Assembly: GCF_003010935.1 (NCBI RefSeq)
Contig: NZ_PGGN01000001.1
Span: 1,426,001 to 1,490,000 of the forward strand
Direction: 5' to 3'
DNA from: Phyllobacterium endophyticum
Lineage (GTDB): Bacteria; Pseudomonadota; Alphaproteobacteria; Rhizobiales; Rhizobiaceae
Length of the DNA stretch: 64,000 nucleotides
How positions within the stretch are numbered: position 1 is the stretch's first letter; each line of letters opens with the position of its first letter. The position numbers were made by a program, and so were the translations under genes. The notes below the pieces were generated by a model. The model worked only from the letters and a program-made list of their open reading frames with translations. It ran no database searches and was not told the DNA's origin. Positions 40,155 through 56,301 of this stretch are shown here, one piece after another.

Positions 40155-41702
40155 TCAATGTGCCGCTACGGCAGACTCGTCTATATGTGACGTTGCATAA
40201 ACCTTGCGCGCAATGACAGCCAACAGAACCAATGTAACAGTTGCCAAGGCACAGCAGACGGCGAATCCGAGCGAGAAACCGCTGCGCGCGGTGTCCAGCC
40301 AAACCGGCGAGACTTCATTGCCCAAGGTCTTGGCAACTTCGACTGCACCGGTAAGGGTGGTTGAAACAGCGAGCGCCTGCGCATCGCTAAGCCCCGAAAG
40401 GTCAACGTCCTGCATCGACATGCGATAGACGATGGTTCCAATGCTGCCAAGCAGCGCGACACCCAGCGCCCCGCCGAATTCCGCGCCGGTCTCGGACAGG
40501 GCCGAGGCGGAGCCTGCCCGCTCCGGCGGAGCGGTACCGACGATCAGGCCGGTCGTGGTCAGTATGACCGGAACGAATCCCAGGCCGACCAGCATGCTTG
40601 AGCCCAGTACGCCGAGGAGGCTCTCCATATAAGCCGCAATCGCCATGGCGGCCGTTCCAATGGCATTGACCAGCAAGCCCAGAAGAATGGTTTTAACCTG
40701 GCCAAAGCGATTAATGACCCGGTAGGATTGAAGGGACATGATCGTGAAGATCAAAGCTGACGGTATGGACCAGAGCGCCGCTTCGAGCGGCGAAAGGCCA
40801 AGCACGAGCTGAAGAAACAGGTTCTGGAAAAGAAACACGCCGAAAACGAAGAATACGCCGGCAAGATTGACCATCAACGAGGCGGTGAAAGCCGGGATGC
40901 GGAAGAGCGCGAGATCGATCAAGGGATGCTCAAGCTTTTTCTGCCGGCGTACAAACCATGCGCCCACCAGGATTCCAATCGCGATTGGTACCAATTGGCT
41001 GACCTCGAACCCATAGGCGGCCATGTGCTTGAAGCCGTAGATGACCGGAAGCACTGTCGCCAGGGAAAGAAGAACACTTAGAAGGTCGAGCTTGCCCCCT
41101 TCATCGTTCTTGTATTCCGGTAGCAGGAACGGTGCCGCGATGAGAAGCGCTGCCATGACCGGGATGTTGATCAGGAATACAGATCCCCAATGGAAATACT
41201 GCAACAGGCCCCCGCCGATCAACGGCCCGACAAGGCCACCCAATGCGAAGGCCGTACCCCAGATGCCGATGGCGCGGGTTCGCTCGGCCTCATTCTGGAA
41301 AAGGTTGACGACGAGAGAAAGAGTTGAAGGAGCGATCGTTGCTCCCGCAATGCCGAGGAGGGCTCGCGAGATGATCAGTTGCTGTGATGTGCTTGAGAAT
41401 GCGGCCAAGGCCGATGCCACACCGAACGCGAAGGCGCCGAACAGCAGAACGCGTCTTCTGCCAATCCTGTCTCCAAGCGTGCCCATCGTAACGAGAAAGC
41501 CGGAGACCATGAATCCGTATATGTCGTTGATCCACAGGAGCTCCGAAGCAGATGGATCAAGATCCGCCATGATCGCCGGCATTGCAAGAAACAGCACTGA
41601 CAGGTCCATGGAGTAGATCAGGCAGGCAATGGATAGCACGCACAGCCCGATCCATTCGCGACGCCCGGCGAGCTGCCCGCCTTTCGGAAATTCTTCATGC
41701 AT
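40155..41702 (-). CDS. MFS drug transporter, DHA2 (14-helix) type
   Basis: Proton-driven efflux pump of 515 residues from ATG 41702, which has a strong GGGGAGG site; the in-frame sequence upstream to 41801 is unlike a membrane protein. About fourteen hydrophobic segments are present. Motif A between helices 2 and 3 is GTLGDRIGRRRVLL, and motif C-like LGGLVGPLIGGGLL follows. The sequence is close to SmvA/QacA-type exporters of cationic compounds such as dyes, biocides and bile salts. No regulator gene is adjacent; DoxX lies upstream on the same strand. Confidence 0.9.
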   Translation of the reverse strand: MHEEFPKGGQLAGRREWIGLCVLSIACLIYSMDLSVLFLAMPAIMADLDPSASELLWINDIYGFMVSGFLVTMGTLGDRIGRRRVLLFGAFAFGVASALAAFSSTSQQLIISRALLGIAGATIAPSTLSLVVNLFQNEAERTRAIGIWGTAFALGGLVGPLIGGGLLQYFHWGSVFLINIPVMAALLIAAPFLLPEYKNDEGGKLDLLSVLLSLATVLPVIYGFKHMAAYGFEVSQLVPIAIGILVGAWFVRRQKKLEHPLIDLALFRIPAFTASLMVNLAGVFFVFGVFLFQNLFLQLVLGLSPLEAALWSIPSALIFTIMSLQSYRVINRFGQVKTILLGLLVNAIGTAAMAIAAYMESLLGVLGSSMLVGLGFVPVILTTTGLIVGTAPPERAGSASALSETGAEFGGALGVALLGSIGTIVYRMSMQDVDLSGLSDAQALAVSTTLTGAVEVAKTLGNEVSPVWLDTARSGFSLGFAVCCALATVTLVLLAVIARKVYATSHIDESAVAAH

Positions 41703-41869
41703 GAAATGCCTCCCCATCTGGAAGATGTTTGGTTCAGAACGTCCATGACGGGCACGTCGGGAGATCCGCTGGTGCCGGCCTTCGAAAACCGGCGCCCGCA
41801 TGGACTGATTTTGCCCCGACCGTCAATCGCCGTGGTGACTAAAATTTATTGCTGCGGGGGCGAGGTCCC

Positions 41870-42310
41870 CTATGCGGTTGCTTCGAGGGCGGCTGGCCCC
41901 GCATCTTGTGCCACATGTGTAGCGGGGCGGAAAGGGAATACCGCCCTTAGCCGTGCATCACGCAGCCAGAGGCCGCCCCACATGAACAAGCCAAGATAGA
42001 GGCTAAAAAAGACGTGACTGAAGAGGGGGCTCTCGGCTCTTATCTGGGTTGCCATCGCTCCACCAAGCAGGCCCATCATCAAGATTGCGCCGAGGACGCT
42101 TGTTCGCGGCAAAAGGTAAAGAACGAGGCAGCCCAATTCTATGAGGCCGATGAGATGAGAGTAGCCTGCGGGCCAGCCCAATTGTGCCATCGTTTCTTCG
42201 GCCACCGGCAGGCCCAACAATTTCGGGGATATCGATGCCAGCAGCATAAAAAGCGCAAACAATGACGTAAGCGCGCGGCCTGACCATAACATGGCGGATC
42301 TATTCATCAT
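41870..42310 (-). CDS. DoxX-like membrane protein
   Basis: Four-helix membrane protein of 146 residues of the DoxX family, whose roles range from thiosulfate-quinone oxidoreductase subunits to redox stress proteins. It begins MMNRSAMLWSGRALTSLFAL and carries the family pattern of a conserved Ser-Pro-Lys (ISPKLLG) after helix 1 and an IELGCLVLYLLPRTSVLGAI helix. AAGGAGAG precedes the ATG. It is on the same strand as the MFS pump, 168 bases upstream of it. Confidence 0.85.
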   Translation of the reverse strand: MMNRSAMLWSGRALTSLFALFMLLASISPKLLGLPVAEETMAQLGWPAGYSHLIGLIELGCLVLYLLPRTSVLGAILMMGLLGGAMATQIRAESPLFSHVFFSLYLGLFMWGGLWLRDARLRAVFPFRPATHVAQDAGPAALEATA

Positions 42311-42674: not shown

Positions 42675-44189
42675 TTAGTTTTTCACCGTGTCCTCCAGGA
42701 AGAATCTTCCCAAGGGGTTTTGGTAGAAGTTCTCGATGTTCTTGCGTGTCACATTGATGTAGGGGCTGTAGTAAAGATCGATCCAGTTGACGTCGGCTTT
42801 CGCCATCTTTTGCAAATCAACATACATCGCCTCACGTTTTGCCGGGTCCTGTTCGAGACGGGCGGCCGCGACGAGATCCTTGACCTGATCGTTCTTGTAG
42901 CGGGTCATGTAGTTCATGTTGGTGTCGTGGCCGAGAACGAATGTTGTCTTCTGGTCCGGATCCAGGATATCGTTCGTCCAGTACATCACCGAGATGTCGT
43001 AATCGCCGGCAATCAGCATATCCCAGCTTTGGCTCGGGTCCACCTTTTGCAGGTTCACCGTCACGCCGGCCTTCAGCAATTGCTGTTGCAACAATACGGC
43101 GATTTGCTCGTCGGTTTCGTTGCCTGCATTGACGACGTAGTTCAGCGACAAGCCGCTGGCGCCCGCATCTGCGAGCATCTGCTTGGCCTTTTCCGGATCG
43201 TAAGGCCGCTGAAGATTGTCGGCGTAGTGATAGAGCGACCCTTTTGGAACATAGGAGTATGCGACCTCACCGAGATTGAAGGTCACCGTGTCGACGATGG
43301 CTTTCTTGTCGATCGCCATATCGAGCGCCTGGCGAACCTCCTTCTTGGCCAACGCACCATGTTCGTGATTGATCAGAAGATGATCTTCGCGGGTCGATGT
43401 GTCGATCTCGACGTTGAGATTCGGGTCCTTCTTCAACTCTTCCACGCGGGAAAAAGGAACGAAAATCGCCGTATCGAGCTGACCAGCCTGAACGTTCAAC
43501 ATTCGTGTGTTGTCATCGGGAACAGAAATCCATTCGACCCCATCGAGCTTGACGCGATCAGCCTGCCAGAAGTTCGGGTTTTTCTCAAGGATGACGCGGT
43601 CGCCGCGACGCCATTCCTTGACCACAAATGCTCCGGAAGCGATCGGCTTTTCAGCGAAAGCTTCCTCGCCGAGCGCTTCCATACCCTTCTGCGGTATGAC
43701 GGACACGTTTGGCAGCGCCAAGGTGGAGAGGAATGGTGCCGATGGAGTCTTCAGCTTGACGACAAGTGTCTTGTCGTCCTTGGCCTCAGCGGTTTCGATG
43801 ACTTTGAAGGAATCACTCCAGAGCGAACCTTGGTTGTCGCGGATGCGCAGCAACGTGAATGCAGCATCCTTGGCCGTTATCGGCGAACCATCGGAGAACT
43901 TTGCGTCGCGCATCGTGAATGTGTAGGTCAATCCGTCTTCGGAGATCGTCCAGCTTTCTGCAAGACCCGGTTCCAGTTTCGTTCCGGTCTTGTCGACGCG
44001 CACGAGAACGTCAAAGACATTCGAGAACACCCAATTGTCGACGTTCTGTGCCGACTTGATTGGATCGAACGTCGTACTGTCTTCGCGCCTGCCGATGGTA
44101 AGAACGCCTTGAGCTTCGGCAATACTGGCGCCAAATGTCAGCATCGCCAAGGCTGCCGCGATTTCAATCCTCATCCATTTCCTGTTCAT
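42675..44189 (-). CDS. Peptide ABC transporter substrate-binding protein (family 5)
   Basis: Periplasmic dipeptide/oligopeptide-type binding protein of 504 residues with a signal peptide (about 1-26, ending IAEAQG). The SBP_bac_5 family is shown by GLAESWTISEDGLTYTFTMR and KFSDGSPITAKDAAFTL near the N-terminus and the late YDPEKAKQMLADAG. The ATG overlaps the ATPase stop by four bases (ATGA) and has GAGGGAA upstream. It is the last gene of an operon that begins with a proline iminopeptidase, suggesting uptake of proline-containing peptides or a peptide-like plant compound. Confidence 0.92.
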   Translation of the reverse strand: MNRKWMRIEIAAALAMLTFGASIAEAQGVLTIGRREDSTTFDPIKSAQNVDNWVFSNVFDVLVRVDKTGTKLEPGLAESWTISEDGLTYTFTMRDAKFSDGSPITAKDAAFTLLRIRDNQGSLWSDSFKVIETAEAKDDKTLVVKLKTPSAPFLSTLALPNVSVIPQKGMEALGEEAFAEKPIASGAFVVKEWRRGDRVILEKNPNFWQADRVKLDGVEWISVPDDNTRMLNVQAGQLDTAIFVPFSRVEELKKDPNLNVEIDTSTREDHLLINHEHGALAKKEVRQALDMAIDKKAIVDTVTFNLGEVAYSYVPKGSLYHYADNLQRPYDPEKAKQMLADAGASGLSLNYVVNAGNETDEQIAVLLQQQLLKAGVTVNLQKVDPSQSWDMLIAGDYDISVMYWTNDILDPDQKTTFVLGHDTNMNYMTRYKNDQVKDLVAAARLEQDPAKREAMYVDLQKMAKADVNWIDLYYSPYINVTRKNIENFYQNPLGRFFLEDTVKN

Positions 44190-45946
44190 AATGATAGTTC
44201 CCTCGTTGTTATTTTATTGATCGTGGCGGGGAATTCGTCCCCCATGGAAAAGACGACCTGCTCAGCCTGCAGAACTTGATCCAGACGCGCCAACCGCTTG
44301 TCGGGGTTGATATCCGGAATCGCGCTGATCAGCGCGGCGGTATAGGGATGACCTGGATTTGCGAAGATCTCGTCGGATCTGCCTTGTTCGACGATCGTCC
44401 CGCGATGCATCACCACCACCCGCTCACAAAGATTGCGCACGATGGCGAGGTCATGGGCGATGAAAATCAGGGTCAGGTTCATTTTCTGTTTCAGGTCGCG
44501 GAACAGATCAATGATTTGCGCCTGAATTGTAACGTCAAGCGCAGCAACGCATTCATCGGCGACGATCAGCCTTGGGTCCACCGCCAATGCGCGCGCGATG
44601 CCTGCACGCTGGCATTGTCCCCCACTCATGGTGGATGGTTTCCGGCCGGCGAATGCGCGCTCCAGACCGACGAGGTCAAGCAGTTCGTTGATCCTGCTCT
44701 GGAGCTTGTCGCCGGTGGTTTTGTTCTGGACCTTGAGCACTTCCGCCAGCATGTCGCCAACCGTCAACCGCGGATTGAGCGCGTTGTATGGATCCTGAAA
44801 CACCATCGCTGTTTCCCTGCGCAAGTGCGCCAGCGCCTTGGCACGGTGCAGCGCAAGGTCGATACCATCGAAAGTGACATGTCCTGAAGTGAGTGGCGTG
44901 AGGCCGAGGATTGCGCGGGCAAGCGTGCTTTTGCCGCTACCGGATTCGCCGACGATGCCAATCGTATCGCCATGCATGACTTGGAGGCTGGCGCCGTTGA
45001 CCGCAGTGACAAACTTCCCGGTACCACTGAAAAGACCGTTACCGGATGCTGGGAACCGGACAACGAGATCATCAATCTCGAGCAAGGGCGCAGAAGGCGT
45101 GCGGATAGGTGGCGCCGCCTGCGGCTTCTCCTCGGGAGCGTCGCCGCCAGGTGCCGGCATGGAAGGATGGCTTGCTATAAGGTCTATCGTGTATGGATCT
45201 TTCGGCGCTGCCAGAAGCGAGCGTTTCGGTCCATGTTCCAGCAGTTTTCCGCCACGCAGCACAGCTATGGAATCGCATGTCTGTGCGACGATGCCGAGAT
45301 CGTGCGTGATGAGGATAATCGACAAGCCCCGCTGATCACGTATGTCCAGAAGCAGGCGCAGGATTTGCGCCTGGACCGTTACGTCAAGTGCCGTGGTTGG
45401 TTCGTCAGCGATAAGGATTTTCGGGTTGCAGGATAGAGCAACTCCAATCATTACGCGTTGACGCATGCCGCCTGAAAACTCATGCGCATAATTGTCGTGT
45501 TGCCTTGTGGGATCCGGTAAGCCGACTTGCTGTAAAATCTGGATGGCAGCCTTCTTCGCCTCCGCTCTCGAAGCCCCCTGATGATAGCGGATGCCTTCAG
45601 CGATCTGGTCTCCGACCCGCATCACCGGGTCGAGATGGCTCGTCGGATTCTGAAAGATCATGCCTATCTCGCTGCCGCGGATCGTGCTCATCGTGGCCTC
45701 GTCGAGTGTAGTCAGGTCGCGCCCCTCGAACATGACAGCGCCGCCTGAGATCTTGATGGCGCGCGAGGGCAGGAGTTGCACCAGGGAGCGGCAAATCATG
45801 CTCTTGCCGGAACCGCTTTCACCGACGAGACCCAGAATTTCCCCTTGGGCGAGATCGAGAGAAACATGGTCGATGAGAGTGCGCGTTTCACCTGCGAGTT
45901 GCGCGGTGATAGTCAGGTCCTGGATCGACAGCAAGGGAGATGTCAT
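44186..45946 (-). CDS. Peptide ABC transporter, fused double ATPase (DppD-DppF type)
   Basis: Two ABC ATPase domains in one chain of 586 residues. The ATG at 45946 overlaps the permease stop by four bases. Domain one (about 1-260) has Walker [10 protein letters not shown], signature FSGGMRQRV and [11 protein letters not shown]. Domain two (about 300-586) has [24 protein letters not shown] and [11 protein letters not shown]. Each is followed by an oligopeptide-type C-terminal extension ([12 protein letters not shown] and [12 protein letters not shown]). The fusion replaces the separate D and F subunits of Dpp/Opp systems. In domain one Walker A ends in Met rather than Thr/Ser, worth noting but seen in similar importers. 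Confidence 0.9.
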
Positions 45947-46794
45947 TGGCGCGCACCCAGTGTTTCGCTGAGTCCGTCGCCCAACAGGCTGAGGCCGAAG
46001 GCGAGAACGACAATGGACAGGCCCGGGAAAAAGGTGATCCACCAAGCTGTGCTGATGAAGCTTTGACCTTCCGCCACCATCACGCCCCATTCGGCAAGAG
46101 GAGGCTGTACACCAAGTCCGAGATAACTGATCGCAGCGCCGTTCAAGAGAACAAGAACAGCGTCCGACATCGAGAATACGATCGAGCCGGCTATCGCGTT
46201 CGGCAACAGGTGCCGGAACATGATGCGTGAATTGCTGAAGCCGAGGCTTACTGCCGCGACAGCATAATCGCTGTTCTTGAGGACGAGCATCTGCGTCCGG
46301 ATCAATCGCGCATAAGATACCCAGCCGACGAGCGCCATGGCGATGTAGAAACTGCTGAGGCCAGGTCCGAGGATGGCAATGATCGAAAGCATCAGGACGA
46401 GGAAAGGGAAGGCCAGTACGACATCGATCAGCCGCATGAAGATGATATCGACCATACCACCGAAATAGCCGGAGATCGTTCCAAGGATGGTGCCGATGAG
46501 GAAAGGAAAGATGACCCCGAGAAAGGCGATCTGCAGATCGATGCGGGTCGCCCATATGACGCGTGACAGGATATCACGCCCGAAATTATCTGTGCCGAAG
46601 GGGTGAAACAGGGACGGAGGCACGAGGCGCAGTTCACTATTGTGCACGATAGGATCATAGGGCGCGATCAATGGTGCAGCGATGGCGGCAAAGATGAACA
46701 ATGCCAGGATGGACACTCCAGCGGCAAGCGTCACGCGTTGGCCCAGCCACCGGCTCCAGCGCAAGTTCCAATCGGAAACATGGACAGTGCTCAC
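45943..46794 (-). CDS. Peptide ABC transporter permease (DppC type)
   Basis: Inner membrane permease of 283 residues. It starts with GTG at 46794, overlapping the upstream permease stop by four bases (GTGA); a longer frame extending to 47541 is a translation of the wrong frame of the neighbour. The N-terminal PLIAPYDPIVHN and HPFGTDNFGRDILSRVIW segments are typical of DppC/OppC. About six helices follow, and the EAA loop reads SLGFSNSRIMFRHLLPNAI. It forms a pair with the upstream permease. Confidence 0.9.
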   Translation of the reverse strand: MSTVHVSDWNLRWSRWLGQRVTLAAGVSILALFIFAAIAAPLIAPYDPIVHNSELRLVPPSLFHPFGTDNFGRDILSRVIWATRIDLQIAFLGVIFPFLIGTILGTISGYFGGMVDIIFMRLIDVVLAFPFLVLMLSIIAILGPGLSSFYIAMALVGWVSYARLIRTQMLVLKNSDYAVAAVSLGFSNSRIMFRHLLPNAIAGSIVFSMSDAVLVLLNGAAISYLGLGVQPPLAEWGVMVAEGQSFISTAWWITFFPGLSIVVLAFGLSLLGDGLSETLGARQ

Positions 46795-47729
46795 AGTTTC
46801 ACCCTCGGATCGATGGCGACCGTCAGGATGTCTGCGATAAAATTCACCAGCATCGTGCCGCAGGCAAAGATCATCGCCACGCCTTGAACCACCATGTAGT
46901 CGCGCGAGAAAATCGCCCGCACGAGCAACTGACCCATGCCCGGAATGGCGAATACACTCTCGACAACGACTGTTCCGCCGATCAGCCAGCCGATGTTGAC
47001 CGCCAGGAGGTTGACGGCGGGAGCAAGCGAATTCGGCAGCACGTGGCGCCAGAAGACGATACTCTCCGGCATGCCACGGGCGCGCGCCGCCGTTGCAAAA
47101 TCCGATTGCAACTCGGTAATCATGCTTGCACGCAGGCTGCGCGTGAGAACCGACGAAAGCGAGAGCGCGATCGTCAGGCAGGGAAGTACAAGATGTGCCA
47201 GCTTGTCGCCGAAGGTTTCCCCGTAACCCGAGACCGGCAAGATACCGAGCTTGACGCTGAAAAGGATCATGAGCATCAGGCCCAGCCAGAACGGCGGGAA
47301 GCCGATACCCAAGGTGGAGAAGATGCGTACCGTATGGTCCGGTAAACTGCCTTGATTGCGTGATGCTATCGCGGCAAGGGGTAGGGCTATGAGAATAGAC
47401 AATATAACGCTGCACAGTATGAGAGTGACGGTCGGCTCTATTCTGGTGGCGATCAACGGCAAAACGTCGATTTTGTAGAGGATGGACTTCCCCATCTCGC
47501 CATTGACCAGGTTTTTGAGAAAGTAAAAATACTGGAGCCACAGGGGCTCATCCAAACCGTACTGAGCGCGAATATTCGCAAGCGCTGCCGGTGTCGAACG
47601 TGCGCCGAGCAGTACGCGTGCCGGATCGCCTGGAATGAGTCTCACGAGGATGAACGTGATCAGGCTGACACCGAAAATGACGGGCAAAAACTGCACCGGC
47701 CGATGAAGGATGAACTTATAGCGATGCAT
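46791..47729 (-). CDS. Peptide ABC transporter permease (DppB type)
   Basis: Inner membrane permease of 312 residues from ATG 47729; an in-frame TTG at 47771 would add 14 polar residues. Six helices are seen. DppB-type signatures are VIFGVSLITFILVRLIPGDPA near the N-terminus and the EAA loop ARGMPESIVFWRHVLPNSL. It follows the iminopeptidase gene by about 57 bases on the same strand and begins the transporter part of the operon. Confidence 0.9.
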   Translation of the reverse strand: MHRYKFILHRPVQFLPVIFGVSLITFILVRLIPGDPARVLLGARSTPAALANIRAQYGLDEPLWLQYFYFLKNLVNGEMGKSILYKIDVLPLIATRIEPTVTLILCSVILSILIALPLAAIASRNQGSLPDHTVRIFSTLGIGFPPFWLGLMLMILFSVKLGILPVSGYGETFGDKLAHLVLPCLTIALSLSSVLTRSLRASMITELQSDFATAARARGMPESIVFWRHVLPNSLAPAVNLLAVNIGWLIGGTVVVESVFAIPGMGQLLVRAIFSRDYMVVQGVAMIFACGTMLVNFIADILTVAIDPRVKL

Positions 47730-47786
47730 CGATAGGCATCCAGCTGTTTCGTCTGCTGTTTCTGGTCTCAAACGGTCTTGCCGGAC

Positions 47787-48680
47787 TCATTGTACAGTCC
47801 CGTGTCGCGAGAGGAAATCCAACAGAACAGGATAATAGTCCTGCGGCTGTTCATAGAATGGCATATGACTGGCATTGGCAAAGACTTTCAACTCTGCGTC
47901 GGGAAGCGCAAGTTTCATGCGCAGGGCACAGGCAGGTGTAAGCTCGTCATGTTCTCCGACAATGATAAGTGTTGGAACGTGCATGTCGGCGAGATCGGGT
48001 ATTCTGTTCCAATCCTTCAGATTGCCAGTGTAAAGGAACTCGTTCGGTCCCTGCATGGTGCCATAAGGGCCCATGTTCCAATCTTCCAGCGAACGGCGCA
48101 CGGGAGCCGGCCAGTCTGGCAGCCGGCAGACGTGACGATAATTGAGAATGGTGACTGCCGCCTGGTATTCCGGATGATCGAGCGTGCCTTGCGCTTCGTG
48201 CTTTTGCATCATGGCTACCGTTTCCGAGCCGAGGGCTGATCGTAACCGGTCAAGCTCGGAGATCAGATGGGGCATGTCGGCTACGGTGTCCGCCAGAACC
48301 AGGGACTTCAGATTTTGCGGGTAGGCCAGAGCGTAGTCGATGCCAAGCCAGCCGCCCCAGGAGTGTCCCAGCAGATGCACTTTCCCGAGGCCAAGCGCCT
48401 TGCGCACGGTTTCGGTCTCTTCGACATATCGGCTGATTGTCCACAGCGTGTCGTCATGCGGCCGGTCGGAAGCGCCAGTGCCAAGCTGATCGAATGCGAC
48501 GACCCTGTAGCCGCGATCGATGAGGCAGGAGTGGGCTTCACGCAGATAATCGCAAGGCAATCCCGGCCCCCCGTTGAGACAGAAGACCACTTCATCACCG
48601 CTGCCAAAGCTGTAGGCGACGACGCGATAGCCATCAACCTGTACCTCGAACCGATCGTCCGGCGGAATTTCACGCCACAT
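47787..48680 (-). CDS. pip: Proline iminopeptidase-like alpha/beta hydrolase, first copy
   Basis: Serine peptidase of the S33 (prolyl aminopeptidase) type, 297 residues from ATG 48680 (a longer in-frame start at 48704 is possible). It would release N-terminal proline or act on a related amide. The oxyanion region is NGGPGLPCDYL, the nucleophile elbow GHSWGGW, the acid EHDELTP and the final His in ASHMPFYEQP. It heads the operon leading to the peptide transporter and is divergent from the LuxR-type gene. The shared gap holds a 16-bp dyad (48761-48776). Confidence 0.88.
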   Translation of the reverse strand: MWREIPPDDRFEVQVDGYRVVAYSFGSGDEVVFCLNGGPGLPCDYLREAHSCLIDRGYRVVAFDQLGTGASDRPHDDTLWTISRYVEETETVRKALGLGKVHLLGHSWGGWLGIDYALAYPQNLKSLVLADTVADMPHLISELDRLRSALGSETVAMMQKHEAQGTLDHPEYQAAVTILNYRHVCRLPDWPAPVRRSLEDWNMGPYGTMQGPNEFLYTGNLKDWNRIPDLADMHVPTLIIVGEHDELTPACALRMKLALPDAELKVFANASHMPFYEQPQDYYPVLLDFLSRHGTVQ

Positions 48681-48760
48681 CGTCCTGTCCCCCGCACGGC
48701 CCACGCTTGCTCAAGAAATAAGCATGGTTAAATTTTAGATATATCTGCTCTCAACACCAG

Positions 48761-48776
48761 CTATAAGAAGTGATAG
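48761..48776. promoter_or_regulatory. Candidate lux-box-like operator, copy 1
   Basis: CTATAAGAAGTGATAG lies between the divergent pip and LuxR-type genes. It matches copy 2 at 49591-49606 at 13 of 16 positions, with CTATAA and TGATAG ends identical. The shared dyad in the only two gaps beside the regulator makes it the best candidate binding site. Confidence 0.55.
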
Positions 48777-48815
48777 GGTCGAACCCGGGCGGATTTTCTG
48801 AGCGTGGGACGCAGA

Positions 48816-49577
48816 ATGCTAAATGACATTCATGACATCAAAGTTCGTTTCGATGCGCCGGAGACGCTGGAGGGCAGAATTGACAGAGCTTTCGAAGCGA
48901 TAAAGGTCTTTGGCTTTGATGCGCTGATCTACGACTATACGCCAGTTCCTTTCGACCACACGGGCGCATTGATGATACCGTCGCTGCTCGAATTGCGAAA
49001 TATTCCGGACGAAATGCGCGAATATTGGTGCGAAAGAGAGTATTTCCGCATCGATCCGGTTCAGCAACAGGCGGTTGGAACAACCACGCCGTTTTTCTGG
49101 AACTATAGCGTTGAAGCGGATACTGTCATCAACCGGTTCATGAACGACGATCATGCGCCCGTGGCGCATTATCTGCGTGAACGGAACATGCTTTGCGGCA
49201 CGACCGTACCGATCCACCTGCTTCGCGGGGATTATGCGACGGTGACAGGCGTACGCTTTGGCGCGGACAAGGGCTTCGAGCGGGACGCCACACGTTACCT
49301 TGCCGATTTCGGCCTACTGGCAAATATATTTCATGAGGCAGCATTTTCATTGTTCGGCGAGGAGGCGCGAAGTTGCGCTGCCATTCGTCTGACCGCAAGG
49401 GAGCGCGAATGCATGCGCTATTCTGCCGATGGTCTGTCGGCCAAGGAGATCGCACGGCAAATCCAGCGGTCCGTGCCCACGGTCGTCATGCATCTGAATG
49501 CCGCTGCAAAGAAACTCGGAGCAAAAAACCGGGTCCAGGCAGTTGTTCGCGCTGCCCATTACCGGTTGCTGGATTGA
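48816..49577 (+). CDS. LuxR-type solo regulator of the plant-signal class (PipR/OryR-like)
   Basis: Transcription regulator of 253 residues from ATG 48816. The N-terminal autoinducer-binding domain (about 20-165) keeps Asp80-Pro81 and Trp95 (LuxR/TraR D70, P71, W85), but has Met67 and Trp71 where quorum-sensing members have Trp57 and Tyr61. That double change is the mark of plant-associated LuxR solos (OryR, XccR, PsoR, PipR), which answer to plant compounds rather than acyl-homoserine lactones. The C-terminal LuxR helix-turn-helix is LTARERECMRYSADGLSAKEIARQIQ. No luxI synthase is in the window. It is flanked by two iminopeptidase genes, the classic setting for this class. Confidence 0.9.
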   Translation: MLNDIHDIKVRFDAPETLEGRIDRAFEAIKVFGFDALIYDYTPVPFDHTGALMIPSLLELRNIPDEMREYWCEREYFRIDPVQQQAVGTTTPFFWNYSVEADTVINRFMNDDHAPVAHYLRERNMLCGTTVPIHLLRGDYATVTGVRFGADKGFERDATRYLADFGLLANIFHEAAFSLFGEEARSCAAIRLTARERECMRYSADGLSAKEIARQIQRSVPTVVMHLNAAAKKLGAKNRVQAVVRAAHYRLLD

Positions 49578-49590
49578 CCGGTGACCTATC

Positions 49591-49606
49591 CTATAACTAT
49601 TGATAG
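49591..49606. promoter_or_regulatory. Candidate lux-box-like operator, copy 2
   Basis: CTATAACTATTGATAG is an imperfect 16-bp palindrome 67 bases upstream of the second pip start. It is nearly the same as copy 1. Confidence 0.6.
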
Positions 49607-49672
49607 CTGCCGTCCGTAGGCCTTGCCCGCTATCATTTTCTCCACTGGATCAGATCGGATGGAGAAGAGAAC

Positions 49673-50581
49673 GTGGAAGCGGTCAGTTCAACAGAAGCCT
49701 ACATGCCCTTTCGCGACTACCAGACCTGGTACCGTGTAACGGGATCGCTCGACTCCCCCAAACTGCCGCTTGTCGTTATACATGGCGGACCGGGCTGTAC
49801 CCATGATTATGTCGATTCCTTCAAAGGCATAGCCTTGGCGACGGGTCGCGCAGTCATTCACTACGATCAACTCGGCAACGGCAACTCGACGCGCTTGCCG
49901 GAGAAGGGAGCGGACTTTTGGACCGTCTCTCTTTTCCTGGAGGAACTTGACGCGCTGTTGCACCATCTTGGCATTCACCATCGCTACGCGCTTCTTGGTC
50001 AATCCTGGGGTGGTATGCTCAGCGCTGAACACGCGGTGCGTCAACCGGATGGCTTGAAAGCACTCGTTATCGCTAACTCTCCGGCCTCCATGCACACGTG
50101 GGTTTCGGAGGCCAATCGACTGCGCCGCGAGCTGCCGAACGAGATTCAGTCTGCTCTTTTGCGACATGAACAAGCAGGAACGCTGACCGATCCGGAATAT
50201 CTTGCAGCGTCCCGTGCCTTTTATAATCGGCATGTTTGCCGGATTGTGCCCTGGCCACCAGAAGTCGCCCGGACATTTGCGATCATGGACGAGGACTCCA
50301 CGGTCTACCGCAACATGAACGGTCCGACCGAGTTCCATGTCATCGGAACAATGAAAGATTGGAGCATCGTAGATCGTTTGCCTCTTATTACGGCGCCGAC
50401 GCTTGTCATTTCCGGCCGCCATGACGAAGCGACGCCGGAAGTTGTACGCCCTTATGTGGAAAAGATCTCCGGTGCAAGGTGGGTCGTCTTCGAGCAATCC
50501 AGTCATATGCCGCATGTCGAGGAAAAGGAATTGTGTCTTGGCACAGTAGGGGAATTTCTGAATTCGAATGATCTTCCGTAG
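49673..50581 (+). CDS. pip: Proline iminopeptidase-like alpha/beta hydrolase, second copy
   Basis: S33-type peptidase of 302 residues starting at GTG 49673 behind GGAGAAG. Motifs are [12 protein letters not shown], the nucleophile elbow GQSWGGM, the acid GRHDEATP and the last His in SSHMPHVEE. It is related to but clearly diverged from the first copy, and matches the usual pip partner of plant-signal LuxR solos. A lux-box-like dyad lies in its promoter gap, so activation by the LuxR-type protein is likely. It is a monocistronic unit as far as visible. Confidence 0.9.
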
Positions 50582-50849
50582 AGCCGTTGCAAGATGATAT
50601 CGCACTTGGCCACAAGGCCGTGTAAATACAACTTGTACGTTCCTGCCCATCCGCATTATCGAGGAGGGACCGACCTCGACGATCTTCGGCAATCCGAGCC
50701 ATGCCTATTCACACAGTCTGCTGGGCAACGCCGGCGCGGCTCACGCACTTGCGGTACCGAATTCCATTTGTGCTCGGCCTATGCTAACCGGCAAGCCAAG
50801 GATAAAGAATCGAAAGTAGCGGAATGTGCTTGCTTTCGAGAAGGGTGAA

Positions 50850-51872
50850 ATGGCTCAAAAACCGGCGACATTGAAGGATGTGGCAGCCTTTGCAAACGTC
50901 TCACGCGCGACGGCTGCTCGTGCTCTTAACAGCTATGGTTATGTCGGTGATGAGACGGCTCAGAGAGTTCGTGACGCAGCGGAAAAGCTCGGCTATCGGG
51001 GCAATCGCCTGGCGCAGGCCCTGCGTAACGGCCAATTGCCGATCATTGGCTGCATTCTGGGAGATATACAGAACCCTTTCTTTGCCCGGATTGCGCACGA
51101 TATCGAGGTGCTGGCTCGTGGCAATCGATACAATCTCATTATCGGCAGCAGCGAAGAACAATTGGAACAAGAAGTCTCTTTGCTGGCGAGCCTCCAGTCG
51201 CTCAGCATTCGGGGTTTTATCGTCGCGCCCACCTCTGACGAGAACAATTTCCATCTAAGGCGCCTCATAGAAGAAAACGTACCGCTTGTCCTGATCGACC
51301 GCGTGGTGCAAGGCATCGAATGCGATAGTGTCCTGGTCGACAACGAAGGGGGCGCGCGCAAGGCCATAGAATATTTGATCTCGATGGGGCATCGCCGCAT
51401 CGGCCTTTTGCAGGACGACACGCGCATCTTCACCTCCCGCGAGCGCTTGAGCGGGTATCAGCACGCGCTCGTGGCCGGTGGTATCACTCCCGATGACAGG
51501 ATGATTTCCGTATCTCAGTCAACTGTGGAACACGCGATCGATGCAACCATTCGTTTGTTCAGCCAGAAGGTTCCGCCAACCGCGCTTTTCACCGTCGACA
51601 GTTTGATGACCCAAGGTGCTCTGCTGGCCTTTCGCGCGATGGGAATTTCGATACCGCATGACGTATCGCTCGTCGGTTTCGATGACTTCAATCTGGCGAC
51701 GTTTACCGATCCCCAAATTACAGTCGTGGCACAGCCTGTTTCGGAAATCGGCCTTGCAGCAGCTCGGCTCCTGTTCGAAAAGCTCTCTGGACAAAGCCGT
51801 CCATCCGAACAAATTCGGTTTGAAACCAGGCTGTTAGTACGAGGGTCGGTCAGCCGCAGACCCGAGGGTTAA
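50850..51872 (+). CDS. LacI-family transcription regulator
   Basis: Regulator of 340 residues from ATG 50850 (GAGAAGG upstream). The N-terminal helix-turn-helix TLKDVAAFANVSRATAARAL is followed by the hinge helix, then a periplasmic-binding-like sensor domain (LPIIGCILGDIQNPFFARIA, GHRRIGLL, LVGFDDF). It lies upstream of and on the same strand as the Amadori-compound operon. An 18-bp palindrome with a central CG (51946-51963) sits between them and is its likely operator. The effector is expected to be a sugar-amino acid or its phosphate. Confidence 0.9.
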   Translation: MAQKPATLKDVAAFANVSRATAARALNSYGYVGDETAQRVRDAAEKLGYRGNRLAQALRNGQLPIIGCILGDIQNPFFARIAHDIEVLARGNRYNLIIGSSEEQLEQEVSLLASLQSLSIRGFIVAPTSDENNFHLRRLIEENVPLVLIDRVVQGIECDSVLVDNEGGARKAIEYLISMGHRRIGLLQDDTRIFTSRERLSGYQHALVAGGITPDDRMISVSQSTVEHAIDATIRLFSQKVPPTALFTVDSLMTQGALLAFRAMGISIPHDVSLVGFDDFNLATFTDPQITVVAQPVSEIGLAAARLLFEKLSGQSRPSEQIRFETRLLVRGSVSRRPEG

Positions 51873-51912
51873 GGCACGTCCAGTCGACACGAAAAAAATC
51901 CAAGAAAGCCAC

Positions 51913-51963
51913 TTGTCAGCCATAAAATCTTGTGCGTTAAATATATGTGAGATCGATCTCACA
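51913..51963 (+). promoter_or_regulatory. Promoter and operator of the frl-like operon
   Basis: TTGTCA (51913-51918) with TTAAAT (51937-51942) make a plausible promoter. TGTGAGATCGATCTCACA (51946-51963) is a perfect palindrome with a central CG, as in LacI/GalR operators. It sits on the predicted start site, where a bound repressor would block transcription. Confidence 0.6.
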
Positions 51964-52041
51964 CGGTTTAACGAACATTCGCACAAGACCGGATCATGCC
52001 CTTGGGGGCGGATCTTGAAATGCGCAAACGGGAAGGTTTTA

Positions 52042-53055
52042 ATGCTCAACTTCGATAAAGATCGCTTTGTGAACATACAACGTGGCGCAGTTGCAGTTGC
52101 GGAAGACGTACGCGTCTTGATGCGCAAATTGCTTGATGATGGTCTGGAACGCGTGTTCTTCATGGGAACGGGCGGTGTGCAATTTCTGACACAGCCAGCG
52201 ATCGAGCTTGCGCGTGCCTCGACAGTCTTTCCGGTAGCGGCAGCGTTTCCTGCTCAGGTCGTTCTTGAAGCCCCCGCCGGTCTGGACGAAAAAGCCCTGG
52301 TCATTTTACCGTCTCTATCCGGAACGACCAAGGAAAGCGTTCAGCTTCTGTCGTTCCTGAAGGAGAGGGGCGTCAAGACACTATCGCTTACCGGGCACAA
52401 GAACACGCCGCTGGGTCTCGATGCCGATTACAACTTCACCAATTTTGCCGAAGACGATACGTCCTCGGAGTCCTTCTACCTGCAAACGTTGTTGATCGTT
52501 CTCGCGCTCCTTGCTGAACGTGGCGAATACGCCGATTTCGACAAGACCGTGGCGGAACTCAAGCTGCTGCCGGAACTGCTGGTCTCTGTGAAAGAGAACT
52601 ATGAGGCGAGCGCTGCGACGCTGGCGAAAGAGATCAAGGACGAGAATTATCACATTTTCACGGGTGCCGGTTCGGTCTGGCCTCAGGCGCACTATTATGG
52701 AATGTGCATTCTCGAGGAGATGCAGTGGATACGCACGCGTCCGGTGCATGCGTCCGATTTTTTCCATGGCACGCTCGAACTGGTTGAGCCCGGCGTGAGC
52801 CTGTTCATTTTCAAAGGCGAGGATGCCTGCCGCCCGTTGGCCGACCGCGTCGAAAACTTCGCAAAACGCTACACGGACAAGGTGCGTGTTCTGGATGCAG
52901 CCTCAGTGCAGCTGCCAGGCGTCTCCGACCAGACGCGCAAGCTGATCTCTCCCGTCATACTTGCCACCATGCTGGAGCGCTTGAGCGCCCACCTGGAAGT
53001 CCTGCGCGACCATCCACTCACGACGCGCCGCTATTACAAGCGCGTCGAATATTGA
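52042..53055 (+). CDS. frlB: FrlB/FraB-family fructosamine-6-phosphate deglycase
   Basis: SIS-domain enzyme of 337 residues from ATG 52042 (GGAAGG upstream). It resembles FrlB and FraB, which split 6-phosphofructosyl-amino acids into glucose 6-phosphate and the amino acid. The tail RDHPLTTRRYYKRVEY and the HGTLELVEPG block match the family closely. Glu226 and His242, sixteen residues apart, fit the spacing of the catalytic Glu/His pair described for FraB. Two SIS domains span about 30-160 and 195-320. It leads an operon with an importer, FrlC-like epimerase and FrlD-like kinase, which strengthens the call. The amino acid part of the substrate is not known. Confidence 0.85.
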   Translation: MLNFDKDRFVNIQRGAVAVAEDVRVLMRKLLDDGLERVFFMGTGGVQFLTQPAIELARASTVFPVAAAFPAQVVLEAPAGLDEKALVILPSLSGTTKESVQLLSFLKERGVKTLSLTGHKNTPLGLDADYNFTNFAEDDTSSESFYLQTLLIVLALLAERGEYADFDKTVAELKLLPELLVSVKENYEASAATLAKEIKDENYHIFTGAGSVWPQAHYYGMCILEEMQWIRTRPVHASDFFHGTLELVEPGVSLFIFKGEDACRPLADRVENFAKRYTDKVRVLDAASVQLPGVSDQTRKLISPVILATMLERLSAHLEVLRDHPLTTRRYYKRVEY

Positions 53056-53061
53056 GCTGTT

Positions 53062-53086
53062 CCCGATCCGGCAATCCCGGATCGGG
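53062..53086 (+). other. Perfect 10-bp hairpin between frlB and the binding protein gene
   Basis: CCCGATCCGG and CCGGATCGGG enclose loop CAATC. No U-run follows, so it is more likely a message-stabilising or processing hairpin ahead of the abundant binding protein than a terminator. Confidence 0.6.
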
Positions 53087-53137
53087 GATCGCACATGCAA
53101 TCAAAGAAAACGAAAGACCAAAGAGAGGAACTGCGAA

Positions 53138-54463
53138 ATGAAAAGCAACACGTTTTTGAGCACCACAAGTCTGGCTTCTTTCGTGGCAGCCGGGCTGATT
53201 GCCGGGGGCGCCAGCGCCGCATGGGCAAAGGATCCGGTTGTTGCGGATCCCGATGCAAAAGTCGAATATTCGGGGACTGTCAGCATTTTGACCAAGTTCG
53301 GTCTACAGCAACTTTCCCCGTTTTTCGTGAATGTGGCGAAGGAATATGAAAAGCTGCACCCGGGAGTAAAAGTCGAGCTCATCCAGGAGAGCGACGACAG
53401 TGTGAAGGGCAAGACAAAGGCGCTTGTGGCTTCCAATTCCCTGCCAGACATTTACTTCACGTGGACTGGGAGCTGGGGCGAAAACTTCGTGCGTGGCAAT
53501 CGCGCTGTCGACCTGACAGAGGTGATCGGTCCGAACACCGCATGGGGCAAGGAACTCGCGACGGCCGCGGTTTCCGCCTTCCAGTACAATGGCAAGCTCT
53601 TTGGCATTCCACTATACCTTGACGCCAAGTTCATGGGCTATAGCAAGCCGCTCTTCGAAAAGGCAGGGGTTTCGGAGCCGAAGAGTTTCGATGAATTGCT
53701 CAGCGCCTGCGCAACCTTGCGCAAGTCAGGCGTCACGCCGATTTCGTTCGGCAACAAGGAAGGCTGGCCGGCCGTCCATTATGCGGGGCAGCTTCTGGCC
53801 TATAACGTGCCACAGGCGACTCTCGAGAAGGACTTCAAACCAGCCACAGCCGATTATACCGACCCGGGCTATATCGTCAGTCTGACGCAATTCAAGCAGC
53901 TGATCGACGAATGCTCGGACGGAGCAGGGACAAATGGCTCGTCATATGCATCGGCGTTGCAGCAATTCAGCAATGCCAAGTCTGCGATGTACTATCAGGA
54001 AATCATCGAATTCGATCAGAGTACTGCTGATGGTGCTTTGAAGAGAGAGGATTTCGGCTACTTCAAATTGCCAGCTCCGAAGGATGCCAAAGGCGACGTG
54101 AAGTCGATCGAAGGCGCGCCGGAAGGATACATGATCAATGCCGCATCCAAGAACATTCCGCTCGCCATCGATTTCATGAAGTTCGCCACTTCGGCTGAAA
54201 ACGGCAAAATCCTTTCGGCTCCGCCCTACGGTCAGCCAAGTGCGACAGTCGGGGGCTATTCTGCGGACACGATGAACCCGGCGGTCGTTGGCGGCCTGAA
54301 GATCATCGCCGACTCTTCGTATCTGATGCCATGGCTGGATACCGCCAATCCACCGCGGGTGGCGGCTGCTTGGCTTTCGGGTCTGCAGGCACTCATTGGC
54401 GGCTCGCAGACTCCCGAGCAGGTCATGGAACAGGTGAAGAAAGCTGCGGCCTCTTCAAAGTAA
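53138..54463 (+). CDS. Sugar-type ABC transporter binding protein (family 1)
   Basis: Periplasmic solute-binding protein of 441 residues with a signal peptide (about 1-30, ending SAAWA). Family 1 features include VAKEYEKLHPGVKVELIQE near residue 65, LPDIYFTWTGSWGENFV and YNGKLFGIPLYLDAKFMGY. AGAGGA precedes the ATG. It delivers the substrate to the two permeases downstream. Given the catabolic genes, a fructosyl-amino acid is the likely ligand (FrlO-like role). Confidence 0.92.
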   Translation: MKSNTFLSTTSLASFVAAGLIAGGASAAWAKDPVVADPDAKVEYSGTVSILTKFGLQQLSPFFVNVAKEYEKLHPGVKVELIQESDDSVKGKTKALVASNSLPDIYFTWTGSWGENFVRGNRAVDLTEVIGPNTAWGKELATAAVSAFQYNGKLFGIPLYLDAKFMGYSKPLFEKAGVSEPKSFDELLSACATLRKSGVTPISFGNKEGWPAVHYAGQLLAYNVPQATLEKDFKPATADYTDPGYIVSLTQFKQLIDECSDGAGTNGSSYASALQQFSNAKSAMYYQEIIEFDQSTADGALKREDFGYFKLPAPKDAKGDVKSIEGAPEGYMINAASKNIPLAIDFMKFATSAENGKILSAPPYGQPSATVGGYSADTMNPAVVGGLKIIADSSYLMPWLDTANPPRVAAAWLSGLQALIGGSQTPEQVMEQVKKAAASSK

Positions 54464-54478
54464 GAAAGCTGCCAGGCA

Positions 54479-55444
54479 ATGACTGTCATGAAGCAGGACT
54501 ATAAGGGTGAAGCCGCAAAGGCCGGCTTCACCTTGCGAGGTAAGGCCGATCCGGATCACGCGGGCATGCTGGCGACGTTGCTGTCGTTGCGCTGGGTATT
54601 CATAGCCTTCGTGCTCATCCTTTGGTTCGTCTATTATCCGATCATCGATAATTTCGTGGTAAGCACCAAGAGCCAGGATATTTTCACCGGCGAGACGGCA
54701 TTCATCGGTCTGGACAATTACCGGCGTCTGCAGGACGACCCGATCGTCTGGACGGCGATGCTCAATAATACGCTTTATGCCGTCATATCGATCATATTCC
54801 AGGTGTTCGGAGCATTCGTACTGGCAGCGATAATCGAGGGGCTAGACAACGAAAAATGGCGTCGGTTCTGGAGGGCCGTCTACTTCATACCCTCTGCGAT
54901 TTCGATCACCGTCACGGGCCTTTTGTTCTATTTCATCTATCAGCCGGACATCGGTCTGCTCGACTCGGCTCTTACGCAAATTGGATTGGAGAACTGGTCA
55001 CGTGCGTGGCTGGGCGAAGAGCAAACGGCGATCTATGCGATCATAGCCATGAGCCAATGGCAGGGTTTCGGCTATTCGACGCTGCTGTTCGGGATTGCGA
55101 TCCAGAAAATACCGCGGGAACTATACGATGCAGCGATCATGGACGGAGCAGGCACCTGGCGCCGGCTGTGGAGCATCACCATGCCTCTTACCCGAGAAAT
55201 GACGGCGCTTATGGTGATCGTCACGATTACCGGCGCCTTCCAGGTCTTCAACGAAGTCATGGTCATGACGGCTGGCGGGCCCAACAATAGCAGCCAGGTA
55301 CTGGGAACATGGCTGTATCAACAGGGCTTCATCGAGAATGACTTCGGTTATGGCGCGGCCGTTGCATCCCTCATTTTTGTCATAACTCTGCTGACCGGCT
55401 TCGGACAGCTTTGGTACACGAAGCGGCGGAGGGTTCATCTATGA
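54479..55444 (+). CDS. Sugar ABC transporter permease (MalF type)
   Basis: Inner membrane permease of 321 residues with six helices from about residue 35. The EAA loop is ELYDAAIMDGAGTWRRLWSI, and AGGPNNSSQVLGTWLYQQGF before the last helix is typical of MalF/UgpA-type subunits. It ends in an ATGA overlap with the second permease, so the pair is translated together (FrlN-like role). Confidence 0.92.
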   Translation: MTVMKQDYKGEAAKAGFTLRGKADPDHAGMLATLLSLRWVFIAFVLILWFVYYPIIDNFVVSTKSQDIFTGETAFIGLDNYRRLQDDPIVWTAMLNNTLYAVISIIFQVFGAFVLAAIIEGLDNEKWRRFWRAVYFIPSAISITVTGLLFYFIYQPDIGLLDSALTQIGLENWSRAWLGEEQTAIYAIIAMSQWQGFGYSTLLFGIAIQKIPRELYDAAIMDGAGTWRRLWSITMPLTREMTALMVIVTITGAFQVFNEVMVMTAGGPNNSSQVLGTWLYQQGFIENDFGYGAAVASLIFVITLLTGFGQLWYTKRRRVHL

Positions 55445-56301
55445 GCGTTGACCTTAGATCCCTCGAGACGGAGCGCACCGATTTTGTTCAGGTGCTGGCG
55501 AAAGCCTGCCTCGTCACCTTTCTTGTCAGTCTCGGCGTCGTCGTCATTTATCCTCTTATCTGGATGGCGCTGAACGGCTTCAAGAGCAACTCGGAGATTT
55601 TCGGAAATCCTTTCGCGCTCCCGACGAACTTCACGCTTGGCAACTACATATCCGCGTGGAACCAGGGCATACGCAATTACATTGCAACGAGCATAATCGT
55701 CACTCTTGGGTCGGCGGTCTGCACGGTGCTGATCAGCGCCTGGACTGCCTATGGCCTGACGCGCTCGAAGCTTCCGGGAAAGCCGTATTTCGTCGGCATC
55801 GTGCTCGGCGGCCTCATGCTGAGCCCGACGGTGGCCGTCATTCCGCTTGTGCGCATGATGCAGGATCTGGGCCTCTATAATACCTATTGGGCACTGATCA
55901 TCCTTTATACTGCCTTCCGCATACCATTCACGACCTTTCTCATCCGCGCCTATATGCTCGGCCTGCCACGTGATCTCGACGAGGCAGCCGTCATGGATGG
56001 TGCGAGCGAAGGACAGATATTCTGGCGCGTGATCTTGCCGCTGTGCAAGCCGATACTGGTGTCCTGTGTCATTCTGCACGTTCTGTTTGCATGGAACGAA
56101 TATCTCTTCGCGATGATATTCACGAGCGGTGCCGATCTTCAGACACTGCCTGTCGGCCTGACATCGATCATGTCGAAACACGGAACAAACTACGCCGTGG
56201 TTTTTGCCGCTATGACCTTGTCGGCACTTCCCATCGTCATCGTATTTTTTGCCGCGCAACGCTTCTTCATTCGAGGCCTCGCCGAAGGCATCGGGAAATA
56301 A
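55441..56301 (+). CDS. Sugar ABC transporter permease (MalG type)
   Basis: Inner membrane permease of 286 residues from ATG 55441, which overlaps the previous stop by four bases; an earlier in-frame start is not needed. Six helices are seen, with the EAA loop DLDEAAVMDGASEGQIFWRV and LPLCKPILVS after it. It completes the importer channel with the MalF-type partner (FrlM-like role). Confidence 0.92.
   Translation: MSVDLRSLETERTDFVQVLAKACLVTFLVSLGVVVIYPLIWMALNGFKSNSEIFGNPFALPTNFTLGNYISAWNQGIRNYIATSIIVTLGSAVCTVLISAWTAYGLTRSKLPGKPYFVGIVLGGLMLSPTVAVIPLVRMMQDLGLYNTYWALIILYTAFRIPFTTFLIRAYMLGLPRDLDEAAVMDGASEGQIFWRVILPLCKPILVSCVILHVLFAWNEYLFAMIFTSGADLQTLPVGLTSIMSKHGTNYAVVFAAMTLSALPIVIVFFAAQRFFIRGLAEGIGK

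Follow-up and report, generated by a model that had tools for sequence, protein, structure and literature searches.

A conserved nesR/pip-type locus in Phyllobacterium endophyticum: a LuxR solo, two iminopeptidase genes and an AapF-type importer as a putative ligand-inducible switch

Which circuit is encoded where a LuxR-type regulator gene lies between two proline iminopeptidase genes, and is it a new one? The question arises from a stretch of 64,000 nt of Phyllobacterium endophyticum (the window; positions 1426001-1490000 of contig C4 in a 5.5 Mb genome, G000, consisting of 12 contigs), for which an original prediction from the sequence had described a LuxR solo between two iminopeptidases and a complete peptide importer. 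All of these genes were found in the places assigned to them, between positions 42675 and 50581 of the window. The locus is real and well preserved, but it is the known rhizobial form of a gene cluster that would take up plant compounds and respond to them, and within this family, which has already been described, it is nothing unusual. By analogy with its relatives, it is probably an ortholog of the nesR/pip locus that acts as a self-contained, import-dependent and ligand-inducible two-operon switch with a putative ligand.

The regulator gene is located on the plus strand (48804..49577 with a GTG start, or from ATG 48816) and specifies a LuxR-type solo of the NesR/OryR/PipR family with the domains Autoind_bind and GerE. 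It is followed on the same strand by pipR (49673..50581; not to be confused with PipR, the regulator of Pseudomonas sp. GM79), and on the minus strand the first gene is pipL (47787..48704, alternative ATG at 48680), encoding a hydrolase of the proline iminopeptidase family. Both genes flanking the regulator passed the TIGR01250 cut-off of 168 bits, pipL with 271 and pipR with 266 bits, which bears out the prediction of iminopeptidases on both sides. In addition, pipL matches solved proline iminopeptidases, and the pipR product scores 478 bits against PDB entry 7a6g, 'Putative Proline iminopeptidase'. Next to pipL on the minus strand are importer permease B (46791..47771; BPD_transp_1 and its N-terminal domain), permease C (45943..46794), a fused double ATPase of 586 aa with two ABC_tran stretches (44186..45946) and, as the last gene of the importer operon, the gene for the periplasmic solute-binding protein (42675..44189; SBP_bac_5), an AapF ortholog. 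For permease C, BPD_transp_1 and OppC_N were detected in the translation of 45943-46875, and its start is probably the GTG at 46794, a choice based on the 4 bases by which it then overlaps permease B. With this start, start and stop codons overlap by four bases at three minus-strand junctions, and the minus-strand unit is therefore very probably one operon. Gene order and domains agree with the proposed importer that is led by the left iminopeptidase and ends with its binding protein.

With the regulator as query, 84,980 species genomes were scanned for homologs; such a single-protein query finds close relatives only, and it yielded at least 80 loci. Among the matches listed, 79 of 80 loci contain all seven genes with order and strands unchanged; the 80th (L084) matched by chance in the DNA-binding part and was rejected as a relative. 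Some of the 79 contain partial genes, with pipR cut by the contig end in L047 and one or two genes in pieces in L065, L069 and L078. Since genes, order and strands are identical in all 79 matched loci listed, the arrangement is beyond chance. The nearest named locus listed (L005) is that of Phyllobacterium sophorae on contig NZ_PGGM01000003.1. Among 398 genomes drawn evenly from the phylum, 18, including the own one, showed a match to the regulator at E <= 1e-15. Twelve of these stand out with at least 207 bits versus at most 67 for the rest, and residues were examined in ten of the twelve. Within the genus, the regulator is present in three of 20 genomes searched, again including its own.

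The two intergenic regions were aligned in 80 sequences, the 79 listed loci and the window. Each region contains one almost invariant stretch with the palindrome CTATnA-N4-TnATAG, which all 79 listed loci have in front of pipL; in front of pipR it is present in 77 of them, and L067 and L078 have near matches there. No further copy occurs in the 1,574,171 bases of these 79 loci. In the window, the candidate regulator boxes are CTATAAGAAGTGATAG (48761..48776), with its centre 88.5 bases before the ATG of pipL at 48680, and CTATAACTATTGATAG (49591..49606), with its centre 74.5 bases before the start of pipR; two copies are thus present versus 0.01 expected from shuffles. Read toward the target gene, both boxes can be described by a single sequence, CCTATnACTTnTnATAGCTG, with one mismatch in the pipR copy of the window, and they precede each iminopeptidase gene in the same orientation relative to it. 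The commonest spacings of the box centres, 71.5 bases to the pipR start and 88.5 to the pipL ATG, are close to those reported for PipR of GM79, -71.5 for pipA and -91.5 for aapA (PMC4981722; publications are cited throughout for the excerpts available). For the pip promoters of this LuxR solo family, a 20-bp inverted repeat has been stated (PMC7683790), and by sequence such an inverted repeat (lux box), a candidate operator, is present in the pip promoter. The rhizobial box sequence was not found printed in the literature searched, to which the original NesR paper did not belong, and no claim is made that it is unpublished.

In its 20-base form, the box gave two matches with at most one mismatch in the own genome, both at the locus, and no third site with fewer than three mismatches. 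Like the genes, the residues described below, the boxes and their conservation, this is a direct observation. A wider regulon in this genome was considered and rejected, as the other seven 20-base matches all had three mismatches and a reversed-pattern control gave 4 and 14. The 16-base core occurs at two further genomic places, on contigs C7 and C10, neither of which fits the 20-base form. The palindrome on C10 (G000:C10:97899-97914; L143:4900), of the type CTATCAGAAATGATAG, occurs in most genus genomes searched. In the own genome it is flanked by a gene for a LacI-type regulator and one for a sugar-isomerase-like protein, open reading frames that were named by eye. It is probably an unrelated operator and was set aside as a target of the regulator.

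Alignments to solved LuxR proteins place the pocket Trp and Tyr of LasR at Met71 and Trp75 of the 257-aa regulator frame. These are Met67 and Trp71 if counted from ATG 48816, with Asp80-Pro81 intact, and their predicted correspondence to TraR W57 and Y61 was upheld. TraR numbering, assigned via the published equivalence and the count from Asp70-Pro71, is used from here on. The regulator alignment comprised 102 rows, some of them the same gene fetched twice; L084, L085 (the window itself), L086-L090 and L092 were left out. Met57/Trp61 is present in 90 of these rows, including all 79 of L005-L083. The remaining ones have Trp57/Trp61 (four, as published for PipR), Trp57/Tyr61 (seven) or Leu57/Tyr61 (one). 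That the substitution pair defines these solos, as originally predicted, had to be given up, because W/W is present in PipR, which is described as the first of these solos whose ligand is known (PMC4981722, PMC7301841). At TraR positions 49, 53, 57, 58 and 62, the window regulator has E, I, M, R and C. The residues reported are E, V, M, R and C for PsrR of Kosakonia, and K, T, W and H at 49, 53, 57 and 58 for PipR (PMC7301841). Judged by these variable residues, the pocket is closer to PsrR than to PipR. The comparison is nevertheless mixed, since most orthologs share K at 49, and many share H at 58, with PipR.

A tree was calculated from 35 rows chosen from the 102, all of them relatives that stand in for the named OryR, XccR and PipR and for proven receptors of acyl-homoserine lactones (AHLs). 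The 28 rows of the type known from plant-associated bacteria (PAB), that of the window among them, split from seven other LuxR proteins with a support of 100/99. The window regulator joins L141 and L005 (support 100/99) within 22 alphaproteobacterial rows that include Sinorhizobium meliloti 4H41. Several branches are long and false joins are possible; for this reason, only the deep split is used.

With AapF of PDB 7kz8/7kz9, the binding protein of the window scores 830 bits, the next solved protein reaching 170 bits, and 362 of 479 aligned residues (76%) are identical. The protein in PDB 7KZ9 is described as the AapF of Pseudomonas sp. PDC86 carrying HEHEAA (PMC11168924). As far as the importer is concerned, the putative ligand would be a compound similar to HEHEAA or to a peptide. 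The fused ATPase had been put forward as a distinguishing feature against the two ATPase genes of the GM79 importer (PMC4981722). This was not confirmed, as the ATPase is a single open frame of at least 520 codons in 82 of 86 loci checked. These loci are L005-L083, L135-L138, L141, L142 and L144, with ATPases more than 55% identical; L142 and L144 appear to repeat L005 and L066, and L140 (41%) was left out. Among the 79 listed loci with the same gene order, 78 have the fused ATPase in one open frame. The exceptions are L065, in two frames in its assembly, and L136, L137 and L138, with the halves in separate frames; the genomes of the latter three share only the phylum with the window and are taken to be gammaproteobacterial. 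In the alphaproteobacterial loci examined, fusion is the normal state; it marks the alphaproteobacterial form and is not peculiar to the window.

From these elements a switch of the following kind can be proposed. The LuxR-type receptor, lacking a LuxI partner, would respond to a small hydrophilic compound that would enter the cell via the adjacent AapF-type ATP-binding cassette (ABC) importer. The ligand-bound regulator would bind the two palindromic boxes, one before each of the divergent units (pipL with the importer, and pipR), and would switch both units on, pipR probably more strongly. More importer would mean more ligand, a positive feedback, and the two aminopeptidases would provide a negative one by degrading or using the ligand, as proposed for GM79. 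Import dependence, activation of the pip promoter and feedback are transferred here from PipR: in GM79, a transporter mutant was unresponsive, peptidase mutants were over-induced, and pipA was strongly controlled by PipR (PMC4981722).

A number of points weigh against this explanation. According to the same report, PipR acts only slightly on the promoter of aapA (importer) in GM79. The control of both units may therefore be lopsided, which slightly lowered our estimate, and the pipL box may act weakly despite its near-perfect conservation. More generally, regulation of the locus is deduced from its sequence and from the analogy to PipR. Conservation of a palindrome is by itself no proof of binding by the regulator. 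PipR-like loci from other classes are without the exact box core; related repeats are present there at the same places, e.g. ACCTAG...TTATAGGT, as read by eye. The tree has the long branches mentioned above and came with a warning of possible false joins. As to the ligand, the receptor pocket departs from that of PipR at TraR 53, 57 and 58 (I, M, R versus T, W, H). For PsrR of Kosakonia, which carries M/W, HEHEAA, ethanolamine and rice root macerate were all without effect in the published excerpt (PMC7301841). Pocket and negative Kosakonia result argue for caution on a HEHEAA-like ligand. Finally, NesR has been associated with stress survival and the use of various carbon sources (PMC3824090).

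The surroundings of the locus were compared within the genus by DNA homology, considering hits of more than 150 bases. In the other two carriers (L141, L142), homology within 19.5 kb is confined to the region from 42674 or 42677 to 50560. Seven other genomes of the genus have the SIS gene that lies to the right of the locus. Five of them were compared (L156-L160; two with 57-58% identity were left out), and in these genomes, which are without the regulator, homology starts at 50746-50777 and none was seen leftward over the 11-12 kb fetched. By the limits of this homology, the locus is a separate block of roughly 7.9 kb whose surroundings differ between genomes. Its G+C content is 0.557 and close to that of the window (0.566), and there is thus no compositional sign of recent transfer. 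The region to the right (50746-55498) encodes a LacI regulator, a SIS-domain protein whose best NCBIfam match, fructoselysine 6-phosphate deglycase, stays below the cut-off, and a binding protein of the sugar type, a block that is kept in the five genus members without the regulator. To the left, outside the conserved block, an efflux-type transporter of the major facilitator superfamily and a DoxX-like protein are encoded on the minus strand (40155-42310).

Could the regulator simply be an ordinary AHL-binding LuxR solo that eavesdrops on AHLs? This is considered very improbable. It is true that Asp70, Pro71, Trp85 and one Gly are kept in the regulator and common to all 102 rows, and that the genome contains one luxI elsewhere. 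No luxI is present in the window, in line with the original prediction, and the sole PF00765 match of the genome lies on another contig (C11:84103). A LuxI match was also obtained in 14 of 17 genomes chosen from those of the 79 listed loci, one of the matches being weak. Three locus-bearing genomes, P. sophorae and two Brucella species, gave none, however, and a tblastn search with the own LuxI against loci L005-L084 found no match, with a sensitivity limited by the strong divergence of LuxI proteins. The pocket also speaks against an AHL ligand: the regulator has Met57, Trp61 and Gln73, whereas these positions carry W, Y and one of V, I or Y in the seven rows with W57/Y61. In addition, it groups apart from the other LuxR proteins in the tree, and OryR and PipR are described as unresponsive to AHLs (PMC4981722). 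Apart from this regulator, the genome encodes two further Autoind_bind proteins.

Closer to the proposed switch is a substrate-induced nutrient-scavenging system, in which peptide-like or ethanolamine-derived food is sensed, imported and hydrolysed, the plant being one natural source. We regard this as possible, though short of probable; it shares most of its mechanism with the nesR/pip switch, and the odds of the two overlap. As for a catabolic operon, genomic 20-base sites with fewer than three mismatches are present only before the importer and peptidase units. The cluster is also found, for example, in Ciceribacter selenitireducens, C. lividus, Brucella pituitosa and Pararhizobium antarcticum, names that alone suggest no plant association, and PipR also answers peptone and Ser-His-Ser (PMC4981722). 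On the other hand, further traits are controlled by homologs elsewhere, among them motility, the production of adhesin and biosurfactant, and the synthesis of antifungals (PMC4981722), and the box search could miss weak direct targets. A more general view, offered tentatively and in our opinion rather doubtful, is that of a portable closed nutrient-sensing cassette in place of a plant-signal master regulator. Its basis is that the sole strong genomic sites belong to the own two units, that neighbourhoods differ within one genus, and that within the family importers are interchangeable partners of this type of receptor: an ABC importer of the AapF type in the window, another ABC importer in L140 and an amino-acid permease in L139.

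The last two loci deserve a short description. In L140 (3495-11151; genome G386 of the same class), a PAB-type regulator with Met57/Trp61 adjoins pipR, and neither a pipL match nor an AapF-like protein was detected in the stretch fetched. On its other side lies a different family-5 ABC importer with a binding protein about 25% identical, and one box, CTATCAAAAATGATAG, is located between regulator and importer. In L139 (7947-10994; genome G356 of the same phylum), no iminopeptidase match was obtained within the 19.5 kb fetched around the PAB-type regulator. Its gene is divergent from that of an amino-acid permease, as described for Xanthomonas, and the other neighbour is a DUF1348 protein.

How much of the locus is new? 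PAB LuxR solos with pip genes have been listed for Rhizobium, Agrobacterium, Mesorhizobium, Shinella, Aureimonas, Rhodobacter and others in addition to NesR of Sinorhizobium (PMC10134790, PMC4338825), and the supposed novelty of an alphaproteobacterial host is not tenable. Because the nesR-type context is already listed for rhizobia, the window contains a known system in a further genus. Phyllobacterium was not named among the hosts in the excerpts of the literature consulted, and can be added. A precise operator candidate is obtained for the rhizobial circuit, with a predicted direct regulon of the two local units only. As the importer binding protein is strongly conserved, the locus also bears on the question whether receptors of the M/W type sense the same ethanolamine-derived compound as PipR.

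Compared by description, OryR and XccR of Xanthomonas and PsrR of Kosakonia share the adjacent pip gene with the window, and the M/W pair is reported for OryR and PsrR (PMC10134790, PMC7301841). The excerpt on Xanthomonas describes no linked ABC importer and instead an APC-type permease (PMC4981722). In Pseudomonas sp. GM79, the regulator is likewise flanked by two peptidase genes and the AapB-F importer, pipL occupying the position of aapA, but PipR has W57/W61 in place of M/W, and two separate ATPase genes replace the fused one. Rows taken as Pseudomonas by residues and gene order have PipR-like regulators 46% identical to that of the window and a related repeat with CTAG replacing CTAT in one half-site. 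The predicted match to the PipR locus thus holds for family and gene arrangement; since PipR keeps W57, the window regulator is closer to NesR. The authors of the PipR work themselves called its arrangement similar to that of nesR (PMC4981722), and NesR of S. meliloti has been listed as lying between pip/transporter and a further pip (PMC10134790). In strain 4H41 (L064), where the regulator is 66% identical to that of the window and no structural difference was found beyond this sequence divergence, the NesR locus has the same gene order, the same box pair, the single-frame ATPase and Met57/Trp61.

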